Part shown: piece after piece, positions 33,416-41,614 of the stretch | How the letters are laid out: each line of letters begins with the position of its first letter | Numbering within the stretch: position 1 is the stretch's first letter | Assembly: GCF_041080625.1 (NCBI RefSeq) | Contig: NZ_CP163518.1 | Span: 7,247,501 to 7,311,500, forward strand | DNA from: Streptomyces sp. CG1 | GTDB lineage: Bacteria; Actinomycetota; Actinomycetes; Streptomycetales; Streptomycetaceae | Direction of reading: 5' to 3' | DNA length: 64,000 bases | Notes under the pieces: model-generated | What the model saw: only the letters and a program-made list of their open reading frames with translations | The model's database searches: none | Told to the model about the DNA's origin: nothing | Made by a program: the position numbers and the translations under genes

Positions 33416-34504
33416 ATGACGACGCCCACGATCGAGCTCAAGCCCTCCGCCAGCCCTCTCGCCGCCGCCGAGCGCGAGGCGATCCTGGCCAACCCCGGGT
33501 TCGGCCGCCACTTCACCGACCACATGGTGACGATCAAGTGGACCGAGGGCCGCGGTTGGCACGACGGCCAGCTCGTCCCGTACGGCCCGATCTCCCTCGA
33601 CCCCTCCACCCACGTCCTGCACTACGGCCAGGAGATCTTCGAGGGGCTGAAGGCCTACCGCCAGCCCGACGGCTCGGTCGCGCTGTTCCGCCCCGAGGCG
33701 AACGCCCGCCGCTTCCGCAACTCCGCCCGCCGCATGGCCATGGCCGAGCTGCCCGAGGAGCTGTTCATCGCCGCGTTGGACGCGCTGCTCACCCAGGACG
33801 CCGCCTGGGTCCCGCCGCACGGTGGCGAAGAGTCCCTGTATCTGCGCCCGTTCATGTTCGCCACCGAGGCCGCGCTCGGTGTGCACCCGGCGAACGAGTA
33901 CCTGTTCATGCTCATCGCCTCGCCCTCCGGCGCGTACTTCGCCGGTGGTGTGAAGCCGGTCACCATCTGGGTCTCCGAGGACCACGTCCGCGCCGTCCCC
34001 GGCGGCACCGGAGACGCCAAGACCGGCGGCAACTACGCCGCGTCCCTGCTGCCGCAGGCCGAGGCCGCCGCGCACGGCTGCGACCAGGTCGTCTACCTCG
34101 ACGCGGTCACCCGCACCAAGGTCGAGGAGAGCGGCAGCATGAACGTCGCCTTCGTCTACGGCGACCGGATCGTCACCCCGGAGCTGACCGGCTCGATCCT
34201 GGAGGGCATCACCCGTGACTCGCTGCTCCAGGTCGCGCGTGACCTCGGCTACACCGCCGAGGAAGGTGTGATCACCCTGGAGCAGTGGCGCGCGGACGCG
34301 GCCTCCGGTGCCCTCACCGAGGTCTTCGCCTGTGGCACGGCCGCCGTGGTCACCCCGATCGGCCACGTCAAGACCAGGACCGACGAGTGGACCCACGGCG
34401 ACGGCGCCCCCGGCGAGGTCACCGTCCGCCTGCGCCAGGCCCTGCTGGACCTCCAGCGGGGGACCGCCGAGGACCAGCACGGCTGGATGCACAAGATCGG
34501 TTAA
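33416..34504 (+). CDS. ilvE: Branched-chain amino acid aminotransferase
   Basis: A 362-residue class IV PLP aminotransferase that carries out the last step of Val, Leu and Ile synthesis and the first of their breakdown. The PLP lysine is in [20 protein letters not shown]; other marks are [16 protein letters not shown] and [16 protein letters not shown] at 33416 follows GAAGGAC. Its TAA stop overlaps the stop codon of the convergent permease gene (34501-34504). Confidence 0.96.
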
Positions 34505-35970
34505 GCGCGCGGTTCGAGGTGCCGCGAAGGGGCGTCGGGTGTCTGCGGGTCTGTTGTGGCTGATCGCGCAGTTCCCCGCGCCCCTTCGCGGCGCTCAGCG
34601 AGCGTCAGCACCCCATACACCGCCCCGCCGACCGCTCCCGACAGCAGGAAGCTGCAGTCCACCCCGCCGGTCAGGTGCAGCAGCGGGCCCTGGTACGTCG
34701 GCAGGGACACGGCCAGCAGGCCGACGCCGGCGCCCAGGGCCCAGGAGACGGTGGCGCGGATGTTCCAGCCCGCCCGGTACCAGTAGATCCCGCCCCGCGA
34801 GCGGCGGTTGAAGACCTGCAGGGCGTCCGCGTCGTACACCCCGCGGCAGCGGGCGAAGCCGATGAGGGTGATGACGGCCCACGGGGTGCCGATGGCGGTG
34901 AGCAGCAGCACGAAGGACGTCATCGCGGACTGCGCGTTCCAGGCGTAGTGGCCGACGAAGACACAGGCTGTGGCGACGACGGCGACGGTGTAAGTGGCCC
35001 GCGCCCGGGAGGCCTTGGGCAGGATCGCGTCCAGGTCCAGGCCCATGGAGTACAGCATCAGGCCCGCGTTGCCGACCGAGCCCGCCGAGGCGGACAGCAG
35101 CAGCGGAACCAGATACCAGGTGGGGGACGCGCTGACCAGCGGGCCCGCGTACTCGGTGGCCGCGTGGGCCGCGTACGCCGTGAAGGTGCCGAAGAGCTGC
35201 GGGACCAGCAGTCCGAGGACCAGGCCCAGCCAGGTGGCGTGCAGCACGCGGCGGCTGGAGTGGCGCGAGGGGGAGATGTAGCGGGTGTAGTCGCCCAGGA
35301 GCGTGATGAAGGCGATGGGGCCGGACAGGCCCGCCGCCACGGCCGCCAGGAACCAGGTCGGCCAGAACGAGCCCAGCAGATAGCCGCCCGTGCCGGACAG
35401 CGCCGAGGTCGTGAAGTGCGGGGCGTAGGCGAGGATGCCGAGGACCAGCAAGGCCGTCATGCCGATCGCGAGGACGCGGGACATGGCGAGCAGCACCCGG
35501 TAGCCGTAGACCGCGCCGGCGACCGTCGCCGCCGCGAGCACCGCGTAGACGACGGCGTACGACACCCCGTCCGCGGGCAGCCCGACCATCCGGCCGAGCA
35601 CGCCGATCATCACGTCCCCGCCGATCCACACGGTCAGCGCCGTGTAGCCGAGGGCGAGGAGCAGGCCGACGATCGAGCCGACCAGCCGGCCCCGGACACC
35701 GAACTGGGCGCCGGAGGACGTGGACAGGTTGGTCGCGGTGCGCAGTGAGACCAGCGCGAGCGGCGCCGTGAACAGGGTGCCGATCACCGTGCCCGCGACG
35801 ATCGCGCTCACCGACGCCCACCAGCCGAGCCCGAAGGACGGCGGCAGCCATCCGAAGATGATCACCCCGAGGCAGAGGTTGGAGCCGAGCAGGATCGAGA
35901 CGAGGTCGCGCGGACCACTGGTCCGCTCCTCGTCCGGGATGGTGTCGACACCGCGCTGTTCAATCGGCAT
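34501..35970 (-). CDS. NCS1-family permease (cytosine/allantoin type)
   Basis: A 489-residue, 12-helix sodium or proton symporter of the nucleobase-cation-symport-1 family. Conserved stretches include [44 protein letters not shown] and [21 protein letters not shown]. Such proteins import cytosine, purines, allantoin or hydantoins. ATG at 35970 is used. It is divergent from the urease operon, which suggests uptake of a nitrogen source. The last 30 or so residues (about from EGARGTARS) are Arg/Pro-rich and are encoded by a dispersed palindromic repeat, so this tail is probably recent. Confidence 0.88.
34521..34592 (+). repeat. REP-like palindromic repeat in the permease 3' end
   Basis: GCCGCGAAGGGGCG (34521-34534) is exactly complementary to 34579-34592, with 44 bases between. 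The inner part has GATCGCGCAGTTCCCCGCGC (34562-34581), which I recall as a very common intergenic motif in Streptomyces genomes. Here it overlaps the end of the permease frame. The copy number in this genome cannot be known from one window. Confidence 0.55.
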
Positions 35971-36001: not shown

Positions 36002-36086
36002 TTAGAGCGACGTTCAATGTCTGCGAAGCTTTGCCCGCAGTCAATGCTTCTGTTTCATGAATTCTGTGTTTAGAGTGATGTTCTAA
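36002..36086 (+). promoter_or_regulatory. Two candidate TetR-type operators, permease-urease gap
   Basis: TTAGAGCGACGTTCAA (36002-36017) and TTAGAGTGATGTTCTAA (36070-36086) are clearly related. The second is a near-palindrome with TTAGA/TCTAA arms. They lie in an AT-rich 144-base gap between the divergent permease and ureAB genes. The urease operon encodes its own TetR (39629-40237), the simplest candidate to bind them. Binding is inference. Confidence 0.5.
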
Positions 36087-36114: not shown

Positions 36115-36813
36115 GTGAGACTGACCCCCACGGAACGTGACCGGCTGCTGCTCTTCGGAGCGGCCGAGCTGGCCCGGGCCCGCCGGGCGCGCGGCCTCAG
36201 GCTGAACGTGCCGGAGGCGACCGCGCTGATCGCGGACACCGTGTGCGAGGCCGCGCGGGACGGCAGGCGGCTCGCCGAGGCCATCGAGGCGGCCCGGTCC
36301 GTGCTCGGCCCCGAGGACGTGCTGCCGGGCGTCGCCGACGTCGTCACCGAGGTGATGGTCGAGGCCGTCTTCGACGACGGCTCCCGGCTCGCGGTGGTCT
36401 CCGAGCCCATCGGCGGCGGCCTCGGCGAGCGGGCGCCGGGCGCGCTGCTGCCCGGACCCGAGCACGCCGACCCCGGGCCCGCCGTCCGGCTCACGGTCAC
36501 CAACACCGCGACCGTGCCGGTCTCCGTCACCTCCCACTTCCACTTCTTCGAGGCCAACCCGCGCCTGGACTTCGACCGCGCCCGCGCCTACGGCATGCGG
36601 CTCGCCGTACCCGCCGGATCCTCGGTCCGCTTCGGGCCGGGCGAGAACGAGGAGGTCGGCCTGGTGCCGATCGGCGGCGAGCGGATCGCGATCGGCTTCG
36701 CCGGACTGGTCGACGGGCCGCTGGACGCGCCCGGAGCGAAGGAAGAGGCCTTGCGCAGGGCCGCCGCATGCGGATACCTCGGAACGGCACCGGAAGGAGG
36801 CGAGGAGCGATGA
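36115..36813 (+). CDS. ureAB: Urease gamma/beta fusion subunit
   Basis: A 232-residue fusion. Residues 1-100 match urease gamma (RLTPTERDRLLLFGAAELAR, LNVPEATALIADTVCEAARD) and residues 105-225 urease beta (VTNTATVPVSVTSHFHFFEA, NPRLDFDRARAYGMRLAVPA). Such fusions occur in Streptomyces and in Helicobacter. GTG at 36115 follows AAGGAGG, a firm start. The stop overlaps the ureC ATG by four bases (ATGA), so the two are coupled. Nickel binding and catalysis lie in the partner UreC. Confidence 0.93.
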   Translation: MRLTPTERDRLLLFGAAELARARRARGLRLNVPEATALIADTVCEAARDGRRLAEAIEAARSVLGPEDVLPGVADVVTEVMVEAVFDDGSRLAVVSEPIGGGLGERAPGALLPGPEHADPGPAVRLTVTNTATVPVSVTSHFHFFEANPRLDFDRARAYGMRLAVPAGSSVRFGPGENEEVGLVPIGGERIAIGFAGLVDGPLDAPGAKEEALRRAAACGYLGTAPEGGEER

Positions 36814-38552
36814 GCCGCTCGAAGGGACGCGAGGTGAGCCGGGCGATCCACGTCGACCCGTATGCCTACGCCGCCACCCACGGCCCCCGCGCCGGCGACC
36901 GCATCCGCCTCGGCGACTCCGGGCTCACCGTCCGCGTGGAGTCCGACTCCCAGCGCTACGGCGACGAGTTCCTGGCCGGCTTCGGCAAGACCGCCCGGGA
37001 CGGACTGCACCTGAAGGCAGCCGCTGTCCGCGAGACCTGTGACGTGGTCATCAGCAACGTGGTCGTGATCGACGCCGTGCAGGGCATCCGCAAAGTCTCC
37101 ATCGGCATCCGGGAAGGCCGGATCTGCTCGATCGGGCGCGCCGGCAACCCGGACACCCTCGACGGTGTCGACGTCGTCGTCGGCACGGGCACCTCGATCG
37201 TCTCCGGCGAGGGGCTCATCGCCACCGCCGGGGCCGTCGACACCCATGTCCATCTGCTGTCGCCGCGCATCATGGAGGCCTCCCTCGCCTCCGGCGTGAC
37301 CACGGTCATCGGGCAGGAGTTCGGCCCGGTGTGGGGCGTCGGCGTCAACTCGCCCTGGGCCCTCAGGCACGCCTTCAACGCCTTCGACGCCTGGCCGGTC
37401 AACATCGGCTTCCTGGGCCGGGGTTCGTCCTCCTCCGACGCGCCGCTCATCGAGGCGCTGGCCGAGGGCGGGGCGTCCGGCTTCAAGGTGCACGAGGACA
37501 TGGGCGCCCATACGCGGGCCCTGGACACGGCCCTGCGCGTCGCCGAGGAGCACGACGTCCAGGTCGCCCTGCACAGCGACGGCCTGAACGAGTGCCTGTC
37601 GGTCGAGGACACCCTGCGCGTCCTCGAAGGCCGGACGATCCACGCCTTCCACATCGAGGGCTGCGGCGGCGGACACGTCCCCAACGTGCTGAAGATGGCC
37701 GGCGTCCCGAACGTCATCGGCTCCTCCACCAACCCCACCCTGCCCTTCGGCCGGGACGCGGTCGCCGAGCACTACGGCATGATCGTCTCCGTCCACGACC
37801 TCAAGCCCGACCTCCCCGGCGACGCCGCGATGGCCCGCGACCGCATCCGCGCCGGCACCATGGGCGCCGAGGACGTGCTGCACGACCTGGGTGCGATCGG
37901 CATCACCTCCTCCGACGCCCAGGGCATGGGCCGCGCCGGTGAGACCGTCCGCCGTACGTTCGCCATGGCAGGCAAGATGAAGGCCGAGCTGGGGCCCCTG
38001 CTTCCCCATGACGGGGAGGGCGGCGACAGCGAGGGCGACGACAACGCCCGCGTCCTGCGCTACATGGCCAAGCTGACGATCAACCCGGCCATCGCGCACG
38101 GCCTCGCCCACGAGGTCGGCTCGATCGAGGCCGGCAAGCTCGCCGACATCGTGCTGTGGCGCCCGGAGTACTTCGGCGCCAAGCCGCAGCTCGTCCTCAA
38201 GTCCGGCTTCCCGGCGTACGGCGTGGTCGGCGACCCCAACGCGGCCACCGACACCTGCGAACCCCTCGTACTGGGCCCGCAGTTCGGCTCGTACGGCGCC
38301 ACGGCCGCCGACATCTCCGTCGCGTTCGTCGCCCAGGCCGCCGTCGACCAGGGGGGCGACCAGATGCCCACCCGGCGCAGGAGGGTCGCCGTGCGCGGCA
38401 CCCGGGGCATCGGCCCCGCCGATCTGCGGCTGAACGCCCGGGTCGGAGCGGTCGACGTCGACCAGCGCACCGGTCTGGTCACCCTCGACGGCGACCCGCT
38501 GCGCTCCGCGCCCGCCGACTCCGTCTCCCTCAACCGCCTCTACTTCCTCTAA
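36810..38552 (+). CDS. ureC: Urease alpha-like subunit with altered substrate pocket
   Basis: A 580-residue urease alpha homologue. All nickel ligands are present: His pair in DTHVHLL (about 143), carbamylated Lys and His in GFKVHED (about 225), His in ALHSDGLNE and in FHIEGCGGGH, Asp in SSDAQGMGR (about 366). The catalytic His of the flap is kept. Differences from textbook urease: the flap CHH reads VHD (MIVSVHDLKP), HSDTLNE reads HSDGLNE, and the GGGTGPAAGTHATTCTPGP loop is replaced by a shorter GQEFGPVWGVGVNSPW. Metal centre intact, substrate side changed. No accessory gene (ureD, E, F, G) is near. It may be a urease paralogue for a substituted urea. Confidence 0.88.
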   Translation: MSRSKGREVSRAIHVDPYAYAATHGPRAGDRIRLGDSGLTVRVESDSQRYGDEFLAGFGKTARDGLHLKAAAVRETCDVVISNVVVIDAVQGIRKVSIGIREGRICSIGRAGNPDTLDGVDVVVGTGTSIVSGEGLIATAGAVDTHVHLLSPRIMEASLASGVTTVIGQEFGPVWGVGVNSPWALRHAFNAFDAWPVNIGFLGRGSSSSDAPLIEALAEGGASGFKVHEDMGAHTRALDTALRVAEEHDVQVALHSDGLNECLSVEDTLRVLEGRTIHAFHIEGCGGGHVPNVLKMAGVPNVIGSSTNPTLPFGRDAVAEHYGMIVSVHDLKPDLPGDAAMARDRIRAGTMGAEDVLHDLGAIGITSSDAQGMGRAGETVRRTFAMAGKMKAELGPLLPHDGEGGDSEGDDNARVLRYMAKLTINPAIAHGLAHEVGSIEAGKLADIVLWRPEYFGAKPQLVLKSGFPAYGVVGDPNAATDTCEPLVLGPQFGSYGATAADISVAFVAQAAVDQGGDQMPTRRRRVAVRGTRGIGPADLRLNARVGAVDVDQRTGLVTLDGDPLRSAPADSVSLNRLYFL

Positions 38553-38568
38553 GGATCCGGGAATTCAC

Positions 38569-39609
38569 ATGACCACCCCCGCCGCCGACGGCTTCCGTAT
38601 GCCCGCCGAGTGGACCCCGCACGAGCGCACCTGGATGGCGTGGCCGGGTCCCAACCCCACCTTCGACGACCCCGAGGACCTCGCCGCCTCCCGGATCGCC
38701 TGGGCGTCCGTGGCCCGTGCGATCCGCCGCTTCGAGCCGGTGACCGTGGTGTGCGGCCCCGGCCAGTCCGCCGAGGCGCAGACGCTGCTCGGCCCCGGCA
38801 TCGACACCGTCGAGCGGGAGCTGGACGACGCCTGGATGCGGGACATCGGCCCCACCTTCCTCACCAACGGCCAGGGCGGACTGGCCGCCGTGGACTGGAC
38901 GTTCAACGGCTGGGGCGCCCAGGACTGGGCCCGCTGGGAGCACGACTCGAAGATCGCGGCGTATGTCTGCGACCTCGCGGGCGTGAAGACGTACGCCTCG
39001 AAGCTGGTCAACGAGGGCGGCGCGATCCACGTCGACGGCGAGGGCACCGTACTGCTCACGGAGACCGTGCAGCTCGGCCCCGAGCGCAACCCGCACTGGT
39101 CGCGCGCGGAGGTGGAGGCCGAGATCCACGCCCACCTCGGTACGGAGAAGGCGATCTGGCTGCCGCGCGGCCTCACCGGTGACTACCCTCCCTACGGCTT
39201 CGGCACCCTCGGCCACGTCGACATCGTCGCCGCGTTCGCCCGCCCCGGCGTGGTCGTCGCCCACCACCAGCCGGACCCCGCGCACCCCGACTTCGAGGTC
39301 ACCAAGGAGGTCATCGGCCTGCTGAAGTCGGCGACCGACGCGCGCGGCCGCAAGCTGGAGGTCGTGGAGGTCCCCGCGCCGACCGTTCTGGAGTCCGACG
39401 GCCACTGGGCCGACTACTCCTACATCAACCACTACATCTGCAACGGCGGCCTGGTGCTGTGCGGCTTCGACGACCCGCGCGACGAGATCGCCGCCGGGAT
39501 CTTCCGCCGGCTGTTCCCCGGGCGGACGGTCACCCTGGTGGACGCGCGTACGATCTTTGCGGGTGGGGGCGGCATCCACTGCATCACCCAGCAGCAGCCG
39601 AAGGCATGA
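38569..39609 (+). CDS. aguA: Agmatine deiminase
   Basis: A 346-residue peptidyl-arginine-deiminase-fold enzyme that converts agmatine to N-carbamoylputrescine and ammonia. Active-site elements are seen: WMRDIGPTFL, LVNEGGAIHVDGEGT, the His in LGHVDIVAAF and the nucleophilic Cys (about 338) in GGGGIHCITQQQP. It starts 16 bases after ureC. The usual next enzyme, N-carbamoylputrescine amidohydrolase (AguB), is not in the window, which makes the neighbouring divergent urease of interest. ATG at 38569 is used. Confidence 0.94.
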   Translation: MTTPAADGFRMPAEWTPHERTWMAWPGPNPTFDDPEDLAASRIAWASVARAIRRFEPVTVVCGPGQSAEAQTLLGPGIDTVERELDDAWMRDIGPTFLTNGQGGLAAVDWTFNGWGAQDWARWEHDSKIAAYVCDLAGVKTYASKLVNEGGAIHVDGEGTVLLTETVQLGPERNPHWSRAEVEAEIHAHLGTEKAIWLPRGLTGDYPPYGFGTLGHVDIVAAFARPGVVVAHHQPDPAHPDFEVTKEVIGLLKSATDARGRKLEVVEVPAPTVLESDGHWADYSYINHYICNGGLVLCGFDDPRDEIAAGIFRRLFPGRTVTLVDARTIFAGGGGIHCITQQQPKA

Positions 39610-39628
39610 ACATGTAGGAGAGTCACAG

Positions 39629-40237
39629 ATGGCCGGTGCGGCACGGGCGCGGAAGAACGCGCCGCCGCGCGAGGAGGTACTCGCCGCCGCCATGGACATG
39701 ATCGCCGAGCGCGGTCTGGAGAAGCTCACCATGGCGGCGCTCGGCCGTGAGGTGGGCATGAGCAGCGGCCATCTCCTCTACTACTTCCGCTCCAAGGACG
39801 AACTGCTGCTGCAGACCCTGGAGTGGAGCGAGGGCCGGCTGGGCGCCGAGCGCGGCCGTCTGCTCGACCGTCCCGGGACGGCCCGGGAGCGCCTGTCCGC
39901 GTACGTCGACCTGTACGTGCCCGACGGCCACCGCGATCCGCACTGGACGCTGTGGCTGGAGGTGTGGAACCGCTCGCAGAACGCGGACGACGAGGCGCGA
40001 GCCCGCCAGGCCGCGATCGAGGGGGCCTGGCATCGCGACCTGGTCGCGCTGATCGCCGAGGGGATTTCGCGGGGGGAGTTCCGCAGGGTGGACGCCGATC
40101 GCTTCGCGGCGCGGTTGCGTGCGCTGCTCGACGGCTTCTCGATCCACGTCGCCATCGGCCTGCGCGGTACCGACCGTGGGCAAGTACTGGCGCATGTGCG
40201 GGAGTTCATCGCGGACGGACTCCTCGCCGGCACCTGA
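39629..40237 (+). CDS. TetR-family regulator of the urease/agmatine module
   Basis: A 202-residue TetR protein with a clear N-terminal helix-turn-helix (MIAERGLEKLTMAALGREVG, HLLYYFRSKDELLL) and an all-helical ligand domain. ATG at 39629 follows GTAGGAGAG. It lies 19 bases after aguA and 54 before the transporter, so it is part of the operon. The role as local repressor is inferred from position and from two matching palindromes upstream of ureAB. A short AAAGGA/TCCTTT palindrome (40252-40264) lies in the gap to the next gene. Confidence 0.9.
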   Translation: MAGAARARKNAPPREEVLAAAMDMIAERGLEKLTMAALGREVGMSSGHLLYYFRSKDELLLQTLEWSEGRLGAERGRLLDRPGTARERLSAYVDLYVPDGHRDPHWTLWLEVWNRSQNADDEARARQAAIEGAWHRDLVALIAEGISRGEFRRVDADRFAARLRALLDGFSIHVAIGLRGTDRGQVLAHVREFIADGLLAGT

Positions 40238-40291
40238 GACCCGGACCGGGTAAAGGAATCCTTTCCTCCAGCGCCGGGCAGGTTACCGCGC

Positions 40292-41614
40292 ATGGGACGA
40301 CAACACTGGAAGAAGATCTGGGTCGGGTCGGCGGGGAACATGGTCGAGTGGTTCGACTGGTTCGTGTACGCGAGCTTCGCCACCTATTTCGCCGGCGCGT
40401 TCTTCCCGAGTGGCAACCCCACCGCCCAGCTGATGAACACCGCCGGCATCTTCGCCGTCGGCTTCTTCATGCGCCCGGTGGGCGGCTGGCTGCTGGGCCG
40501 GGTCGGCGACCGCAAGGGCCGCAAGGCGGCGCTGATGCTGACCGTCACGCTGATGTCGGCCTCGGCGATCCTCATCGCCGCCGCCCCGACCTACGCGGTC
40601 GCCGGCTACGGCGGCGCGTTCGTGCTACTCGTCGCCCGCCTGCTGCAGGGCCTGTCGGTGGGCGGTGAGTACGCGGCCAGCGCCACGTATCTCACGGAGG
40701 CCTCGGACCCGAAGCGGCGCGGATTCGCCTCCAGCTTCCAGTACGTCTCCATGACCGCCGGCCAGATCGTCGGCCTCGGACTGCAGATCATCCTGCAGCG
40801 GACCATGTCCGACAGCGCGCTGCACAGTTACGGCTGGCGCATCCCGTTCATCGTAGGCGCGCTCGGCGCGGCGATCATCTTCTATCTGCGCCGCACCATG
40901 CTGGAGACAGAGGTGTACGAGGAGGACGCCTCCCACGCCGAGGAGCGCGGCACCCTGCGCGCGCTGTGGCAGCACAAGCGGGAGGCGTTCCTGGTCATCG
41001 CCCTCACCATGGGCGGCACGGTCGCGTACTACACGTACACCACCTATCTGACGAAGTACCTGTCCAACTCGGCCGGCCTGTCCAAACAGACGGCGACGCT
41101 CGTCTCCTTCGCCGCGCTGATCGTCTTCGCCTGTCTGCAGCCGCTCGCCGGCGCGCTGTCGGACCGGATCGGCCGCCGTCCGCTGCTCATCACCTTCGCG
41201 GTCGGCTCCACCTTCCTCACCGTGCCGATCATGACCCTGCTCAAGCACGCGGACAGCTTCTGGCCGGCGTTCGGGCTCGCCCTGCTCGCGCTGGTCGTCG
41301 TCACCGGCTACACCTCGATCAACGCCTGTGTGAAGGCCGAGCTGTTCCCGACCGGCGTCCGCGCGCTCGGCGTGGCCCTGCCGTACGCCATCGGCAACGC
41401 GCTCTTCGGCGGCACCGCGGAGTACATCGCCCTGTGGTTCAAGAAGGCCGGGATCGAGTCGGGCTTCTTCTGGTACGTGGCGGGCTGCGCCGCCGTATCC
41501 CTTGTGGTGTACGTCACCATGCGCGAGACGAAGGACCTGCATCTGGCCCGGGTGACGGCCGGTCAGGAAGCCGGAGCGGGCTCCGGGGAGTCCAGTCTGA
41601 CGACCGCATCCTGA
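40292..41614 (+). CDS. MFS transporter, metabolite:H+ symporter (MHS) type
   Basis: A 440-residue, 12-helix carrier like ProP/KgtP. The family marks are strong: GNMVEWFDWFVYASFATYFA in helix 1, FFMRPVGGWLLGRVGDRKGR, RLLQGLSVGGEYAASATYLT and the loop SDRIGRRPLL. MHS transporters import dicarboxylates, betaine-type solutes, or other small organic ions. As last gene of the urease/agmatine unit, it may import agmatine, putrescine or a ureido compound; that is inference. ATG at 40292 is used; no strong ribosome site. Confidence 0.9.
   Translation: MGRQHWKKIWVGSAGNMVEWFDWFVYASFATYFAGAFFPSGNPTAQLMNTAGIFAVGFFMRPVGGWLLGRVGDRKGRKAALMLTVTLMSASAILIAAAPTYAVAGYGGAFVLLVARLLQGLSVGGEYAASATYLTEASDPKRRGFASSFQYVSMTAGQIVGLGLQIILQRTMSDSALHSYGWRIPFIVGALGAAIIFYLRRTMLETEVYEEDASHAEERGTLRALWQHKREAFLVIALTMGGTVAYYTYTTYLTKYLSNSAGLSKQTATLVSFAALIVFACLQPLAGALSDRIGRRPLLITFAVGSTFLTVPIMTLLKHADSFWPAFGLALLALVVVTGYTSINACVKAELFPTGVRALGVALPYAIGNALFGGTAEYIALWFKKAGIESGFFWYVAGCAAVSLVVYVTMRETKDLHLARVTAGQEAGAGSGESSLTTAS

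Follow-up and report, generated by a model that had tools for sequence, protein, structure and literature searches.

Urease is a classic enzyme of narrow specificity that depends on nickel and on chaperones of its own. In Streptomyces coelicolor, a urease cluster composed of ure(AB)C only has been described (PMC2492869). A second study lists SCO5525-5526 as urea-utilising genes and counts SCO5527 and SCO6414 as homologues of the arginine decarboxylase pathway of Pseudomonas (PMC3293853). In PMC4991794 a different operon bears the numbers SCO5526-SCO5524, and that paper was left aside because its numbering conflicts. A comparable gene group is present in the window analysed here, i.e., the whole stretch of 64,000 nucleotides at positions 7,247,501 to 7,311,500 of contig NZ_CP163518.1 of Streptomyces sp. 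CG1, which is part of an 11.1 Mb Streptomyces-type genome. It contains a tight run of genes encoding a fused urease gamma/beta subunit (UreAB), an alpha subunit that diverges from ordinary urease (UreC2) and an agmatine deiminase family protein (AgDI), followed by genes of a TetR regulator and an MHS-type transporter, with the gene of an NCS1-family permease read divergently. Judging by the comparisons described below, UreC2 probably acts on the product of AgDI, most likely N-carbamoylputrescine, in place of the nitrilase AguB. A search of the PMC literature by titles and the beginnings of abstracts, a scope to which subscription papers and preprints do not belong, found no urease-like enzyme linked to N-carbamoylputrescine or to this operon.

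Profile searches indicate that UreC2 belongs to the urease family (NF009686 urease alpha subfamily, 741.3 bits with a cut-off of 354), and the urease subunit set, comprising gamma, beta and an alpha subunit with a urease fold, is present; UreC2 misses the cut-off of the urease-alpha equivalog TIGR01792 (636.5 vs. 680 bits). Both UreC2 and UreAB matched only urease and amidohydrolase-type models at E-values up to 0.001, and no nitrilase model (AguB family TIGR03381) matched either protein at this threshold. The predicted model of UreC2 (mean pLDDT 83.6, pTM 0.89) is similar to solved urease structures, with a TM score of about 0.9. An earlier note on this DNA, made from the letters alone, had pointed to a flap changed from CHH to VHD, to the motif HSDGLNE and to replacement of the GTHATTCTPGP loop, and a comparison with the ordinary UreC of the same genome bears out all three, since that protein has CHH and HTDTLNE and the loop of UreC2 is four residues shorter. 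UreC2 thus lacks both the CHH flap and the urea-pocket loop of urease, and a further change, from SDSQAMGR to SDAQGMGR, had escaped the earlier note.

An alignment shows that these changes recur in relatives of UreC2. It included 53 alpha subunits of the DGLNE type, that of the window among them, and 28 others; the type was assigned by the glycine of the HxDGLNE motif (HxDxLNE typing), and this glycine is no evidence in itself, because it defines the group. The flap Cys is replaced by Val or Ala in 50 of the 53 DGLNE-type proteins (it is kept in those of loci L058, L099 and L110) and is present in 26 of the 28 other ureases; the alanine of SDxQ(A)MGR is Gly in 52 of the 53 (one gap) and in two of the 28; the pocket loop of the DGLNE-type proteins occurs in two lengths, 34 residues (42 proteins) and 27 residues (11 proteins), as against 35-38 residues in the others. 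The altered loop and the alanine line the urea pocket in urease, so such changes would be expected if a larger substrate must enter. At the positions that we take to be those of the metal ligands, the carbamylated Lys, the flap His and the Arg of urease, the ligand His and Lys residues and the flap His are found in 53/53, Asp369 in 52/53 (one gap) and Arg345 in 52/53 (one Leu); the retention of the nickel ligands and flap His in UreC2, reported earlier, is borne out. In an unrooted tree of 81 chosen rows, built with a quick method and given a midpoint root, the DGLNE type occupies one side of a single branch (SH-aLRT 99).

The idea that UreC2 is a Streptomyces oddity was ruled out, as DGLNE-type genes also come from further orders and from actinobacteria that have not been cultured. 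Six loci (L054-L057, L034 and L040) form a second DGLNE-type branch from uncultured actinobacteria, including a metagenome-assembled genome of Thermoleophilia; only L034 among them has AgDI nearby, and public metagenome sets contain numerous relatives of L034 under the name urease. Separately, L041 (G218:C54) and L015 (G074) encode an atypical pair of UreC proteins that retain CHH and HTDTLNE, have QGMGR and are altered in the pocket loop; UreG adjoins the atypical UreC of G218.

The association of UreC2 with the deiminase is close in the window, where the start of the UreC2 gene overlaps the end of the UreAB gene by 4 bases (ATGA) and 16 bases separate it from the AgDI gene, as would suit the single operon proposed in the earlier note, and it was found again in a phylum sample of 396 genomes. 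This sample contained 85 UreC places, 23 of the DGLNE type, 50 of other types and 12 that could not be typed, the locus not having been fetched or the motif lying outside the fragment. Of the 23 UreC genes of the DGLNE type, 13 have AgDI within 1 kb, and none of the 50 others has it even within 10 kb (Fisher p 1.3e-8). Ten of the 13 linked loci belong to Streptomyces and are therefore not independent events; the other three (in genomes G208, G007 and G224) are distant, with UreC proteins only 47-51% identical to the query and AgDI within 1 kb in each. In the best 80 named loci from public genomes, some of which are cut by contig ends, UreAB was found in all 80, and AgDI lies no more than 3 kb away in 72; their sources include Streptomyces, Kitasatospora, Streptacidiphilus, Actinospica and Streptosporangiaceae. 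The motifs WxRD, EGG, HxD and HCxT, which we take to be the catalytic motifs of guanidine-modifying enzymes, are all present in 100 of 101 AgDI matches, including that of the window, the only exception being a 155-residue piece at a locus end.

Some loci depart from this plan. Three to five AgDI matches surround UreAB-UreC2 in L047, L105, L115 (where one match is cut by the locus end), L119, L120 and L127; some AgDI proteins of L047 have signal-peptide-like N-termini, as read by eye, and L119 also encodes a family-5 solute-binding protein. Various guanidino compounds may be processed by such islands. No AgDI lies near the DGLNE-type UreC genes of L058, L099, L110 and L114, the first three of which encode a CHG flap; the neighbours include, in L058, genes of an amidohydrolase and of an amino-acid permease and, in L110, by reading only, XdhC-like and oxidase-like genes. 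These four proteins possibly have another substrate.

The place that UreC2 takes beside the deiminase is taken elsewhere by AguB-like proteins. Among the 52 genomes of the sample that carry AgDI, it adjoins UreC2 in 12 (nine Streptomyces, G007, G208 and G224), lies 24-177 bases from an AguB-like nitrilase in 12, and adjoins both in none. AguB over the cut-off was found in none of the 28 carriers of DGLNE-type UreC (two sets, of 16 and 12) and in 5 of the 39 genomes of the same sets without such a UreC; nitrilases were searched at E up to 1e-3 in the first set and up to 1e-40 in the second, where weaker neighbours are missed. For the genome of the window, the absence of AguB suspected earlier was corroborated, no match being over the cut-off. 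An overlooked dedicated AguB was ruled out there, as the two best matches reach 262 and 255 bits (cut-off 410). Both are accompanied by genes of an aminotransferase-like protein and of a dihydropyrimidinase (568.7 bits, cut-off 393.25), a context in which pyrimidine catabolism can explain them; the encoded enzymes may have a side activity on N-carbamoylputrescine. AguB-like matches of 256-261 bits also occur in three Streptomyces genomes where UreC2 was not found. Genome G218 contains an agmatine deiminase scoring 588 bits near a contig end and a DGLNE-type UreC elsewhere, with no AguB over the cut-off.

Two further deiminase loci were observed. In L235:5725-8468 (genome G257), the gene directly after AgDI encodes an amidase-signature protein (NF005127, 1037 bits), and the UreC scan gave no match in this genome; the amidase is a possible third enzyme for the ureido-hydrolysis step. 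In G107, a Streptomyces genome without a UreC2 match, AgDI stands at a contig end, so UreC2 is perhaps missing from the assembly only.

No accessory genes had been noticed near UreC2, and in its own genome they are indeed more than 5 Mb away: the only UreG over the cut-off (C1:2042149-2042721) and the only UreD match (C1:2041472-2041984) lie beside an ordinary UreC (C1:2043588-2045294), forming the second full urease cluster that the earlier note had suggested looking for. In some other genomes UreG and an intact UreD were not found. UreG over the cut-off was absent from the DGLNE carriers G208, G007, G022, G245, G037, G117 and G171 and from 7 of the 29 genomes behind the named loci, and none of these 14 carriers has an intact UreD (13 gave no match, and the UreD fragment of G171 stays under the cut-off). 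In 13 of the 14, just one urease-alpha match exceeds the cut-off and is taken as UreC2; G171 also has a broken ordinary UreC. AgDI adjoins UreC2 in five of them (G208, G007, G171, L064 and L131), including two isolates, Thermoactinospora rubra YIM 77501 (L064) and Kitasatospora phosalacinea NRRL B-16228 (L131); most of the remaining carriers are metagenome drafts, and the six non-Streptomyces genomes among the seven carriers named first have a stated completeness of 84-96%. UreG is therefore dispensable for carrying UreC2, and nickel independence is a candidate idea only. Among 121 Streptomyces genomes, UreC2 was matched in 74, a count that includes a few partial or stop-containing matches, and UreG in 104; six of the 74 lack UreG, of which only G171 and G513 are assembled in few contigs, and UreG is missing in 11 of the 47 genomes without UreC2.

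These observations can offer a scheme of substrate, reaction, metal, transport and regulation, which we infer from the gene content and residue conservation. The NCS1 permease would import the substrate, a guanidino-amine (most likely agmatine), which AgDI would convert to its ureido form (N-carbamoylputrescine) and ammonia, and UreAB-UreC2 would then split the ureido-amine into the free amine (putrescine), ammonia and carbon dioxide. UreAB-UreC2 would be a urease-fold metallohydrolase for which urea is no longer the main substrate; with the metal ligands, the carbamylated-Lys position and the catalytic His kept, the altered pocket would let a substituted urea be hydrolysed, and UreC2 would fill the job of AguB, a member of an unrelated protein family. 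TetR would control the divergent promoters via TTAGA-N7-TCTAA sites. The earlier proposal that the urease-like enzyme hydrolyses N-carbamoylputrescine has thus kept its part about the place of AguB, given the AgDI adjacency over deep divergence, the absence of genomes with both neighbours and the lack of AguB; its part about agmatine has become less certain. A wider and more tentative suggestion, which may well prove too broad, is that the whole UreC2 clade consists of ureido-amine hydrolases replacing AguB, which can assemble without UreG and UreD, maybe with another metal, and have spread across Actinomycetota in guanidino-compound catabolism.

Several results weigh against a role of UreC2 in place of AguB. 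Adjacent AgDI is lacking at 10 of the 23 DGLNE loci of the phylum sample, seven of the 23 being in genomes without any AgDI match, and AgDI is absent from 8 of the best 80 named loci. The split between AguB-like and UreC2 neighbours has a p value of 0.047 among 52 genomes that are related, 28 of which show neither neighbour; 7 of the 12 AgDI-adjacent nitrilases are below the AguB cut-off and five above it, and 34 of the 39 genomes without UreC2 also have no AguB over the cut-off. Furthermore, UreG is present in 68 of the 74 UreC2-positive Streptomyces genomes vs. 36 of the 47 negative ones (p 0.03), a pattern in keeping with a requirement for nickel loading. The last observation also suits an explanation that we consider improbable, namely that UreC2 is an ordinary urea-hydrolysing isoenzyme that receives its nickel through the accessory proteins of the main urease cluster, AgDI merely adding nitrogen scavenging. 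The conserved metal ligands, flap His and Arg, the predicted urease fold, the database annotation as urease and the listing of the presumed orthologues SCO5525-5526 as urea-utilising in PMC3293853 all agree with this explanation, but it leaves aside the pocket changes common to the DGLNE group, the missed TIGR01792 cut-off, the 14 carriers without UreG and intact UreD, the lack of close AgDI linkage in all 50 ordinary UreC genes and the full urease cluster that the genome already has.

The remaining points concern the substrate. AgDI scores 320.2 bits against the agmatine deiminase model TIGR03380, below the cut-off of 381.8, and because of this score agmatine is not certain and its substrate may differ; the same holds for all 11 tested genomes with a UreC2-adjacent AgDI (some matches being split), a comparison that did not include G224, the twelfth such genome. 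This argues for another ureido compound, e.g., deiminated 4-guanidinobutyrate or a different guanidino metabolite, or for a broad range of alkylureas, as do the six loci with multiple AgDI, with the putative signal peptides of L047 and the solute-binding protein of L119, and the relatives without AgDI in other settings, such as L058. We nevertheless regard such a substrate as unlikely, if somewhat less so than plain urea, since the AgDI neighbour in other actinobacteria is AguB-like, which points to N-carbamoylputrescine chemistry, and a Pot-type transporter stands beside one tested UreC2. That UreC2 is a paralogue without catalytic activity or with a structural role seems very improbable: several of its pocket residues differ from those of nearly all ordinary ureases compared, but the ligand His and Lys residues and the catalytic His are kept throughout the 53 proteins, and the operon with UreAB and, mostly, AgDI has been held over deep divergence. 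Hydrolysis of N-carbamoylputrescine in place of AguB remains the interpretation that we favour.

The features of the locus are listed in Table 1. The TetR gene, absent from the earlier note, follows AgDI after 19 bases, and the MHS gene follows TetR after 54 bases; the MHS protein is under the cut-offs of NF007710 (463.3 bits) and TIGR00883 (398.7 bits). A promoter scan found no sigma-70-like site and one terminator-like site downstream of the MHS gene, with 1.5 expected; these results were not used.

Table 1. Genes and operator-like sites of the UreC2 locus (positions within the window).
Feature	Position	Strand	Remarks
NCS1-family permease	34501..35970	-	PF02133 344.1 bits (cut-off 23.5); candidate importer of guanidino substrate
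Operator-like site 1, TTAGAGCGACGTTCAAT	36002..36018	.	Degenerate copy; second-best site in the NCS1-UreAB intergenic stretch
Operator-like palindrome 2, TTAGA-N7-TCTAA	36070..36086	.	Candidate TetR operator
UreAB, fused urease gamma/beta	36115..36813	+	GTG start; PF00547 121.7 bits, PF00699 108.7 bits; gamma/beta model NF009671 324.9 bits (cut-off 243)
UreC2, divergent urease alpha, proposed ureido-amine hydrolase	36810..38552	+	Profile matches, predicted fold
AgDI, agmatine-deiminase family, proposed maker of ureido compound	38569..39609	+	PF04371 366.3 bits (cut-off 25)
TetR regulator, BetI-type C-terminal domain	39629..40237	+	PF00440 52.7 bits, PF13977 83.9 bits
MHS-type MFS transporter, optional cluster member	40292..41614	+	PF00083 146.7 bits, above cut-off

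Among the best 80 named loci, NCS1 is present in 37, TetR in 62 and MHS in 19. The earlier suggestion that both transporters supply the substrate is thus plausible for NCS1 and weakened for MHS, which is an occasional member. A PF02133 permease also stands beside AgDI in L237 and L238, from genomes where UreC2 was not found. In three closely related genomes that lack AgDI (L037, L039 and L051), transporter genes come next after the UreC2 operon; those of L039, the only ones tested with profiles, include a PotA match (TIGR01187, 382.8 bits, cut-off 355.6) and PotB and PotD matches below the cut-offs. The operator scan covered loci in which NCS1 was matched and the intergenic stretch measured 60-500 bases. 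In all 42 such loci, including the window, the TTAGA-N7-TCTAA palindrome was found between NCS1 and UreAB, with 10/10 motif positions in 35 and 9/10 in 7, and a weaker second copy scored 7 or 8 of 10 positions, both counts being without a shuffle control. The palindrome is a candidate operator of the TetR protein of the cluster.

If the proposed function is correct, the clade would illustrate the way in which a urease can take on a different substrate, the catalytic centre being kept and the pocket, the partner and perhaps the metal being changed; since some natural carriers have no chaperones, the choice of metal in the urease fold becomes directly testable. It would also fill the AguB step of the agmatine route in many Streptomyces, given the UreC2 matches in 74 of the 121 sampled genomes. 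Databases, where they name UreC2-type proteins, call them urease subunit alpha, so predictions of urea degradation and ureC surveys may be inflated, and some genomes now read as urea-degrading may do something else. In a study of cave Streptomyces, ure(AB)C was counted as a urease cluster, 90% of the strains encoding all urease genes and 15 of 31 isolates being ureolytic, a gap for which the authors gave other reasons (PMC5489568).

Compared with urease (EC 3.5.1.5; UreABC of Sporosarcina pasteurii, 6zny/1ie7, and of Klebsiella, 2kau), the UreC2 system has the same subunit make-up (gamma/beta fusion and alpha), fold, metal ligands, carbamylated-Lys position and catalytic His and Arg. It differs in the replaced and shortened pocket loop, in HxDGLNE instead of HxDTLNE, in the loss of the flap Cys and in SDxQGMGR instead of SDxQAMGR, as well as in being linked to AgDI, scoring below the urease-alpha cut-off and being carried by some genomes without UreG or intact UreD. 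With AguB (TIGR03381) it shares the place beside the deiminase and the proposed reaction, the two families being unrelated: UreC2 is an amidohydrolase-type metal enzyme, whereas AguB is a nitrilase. The fold of the UreC2 model also matches Helicobacter mustelae UreAB2 (3qga, UreA2B2; TM 0.90), which presumably keeps the ordinary pocket. Unlike UreC2-AgDI, UreA2B2 is reported as a urease, and the accessible portion of its description mentions no link to a deiminase. A parallel with the accessory-independent type of urease that UreA2B2 represents, active without accessory proteins and nickel, would so far be a genomic one, in the UreC2 carriers that lack UreG and an intact UreD. Among the close counterparts are also SCO5525-SCO5527 of S. 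coelicolor, the presumed orthologues of UreAB-UreC2-AgDI, an equivalence presumed without alignment; that cluster is described as urea-utilising, and the available text makes no mention of N-carbamoylputrescine. UreC2 is a variant of the urease family whose fold is not new, and it would solve the AguB step in a novel manner.

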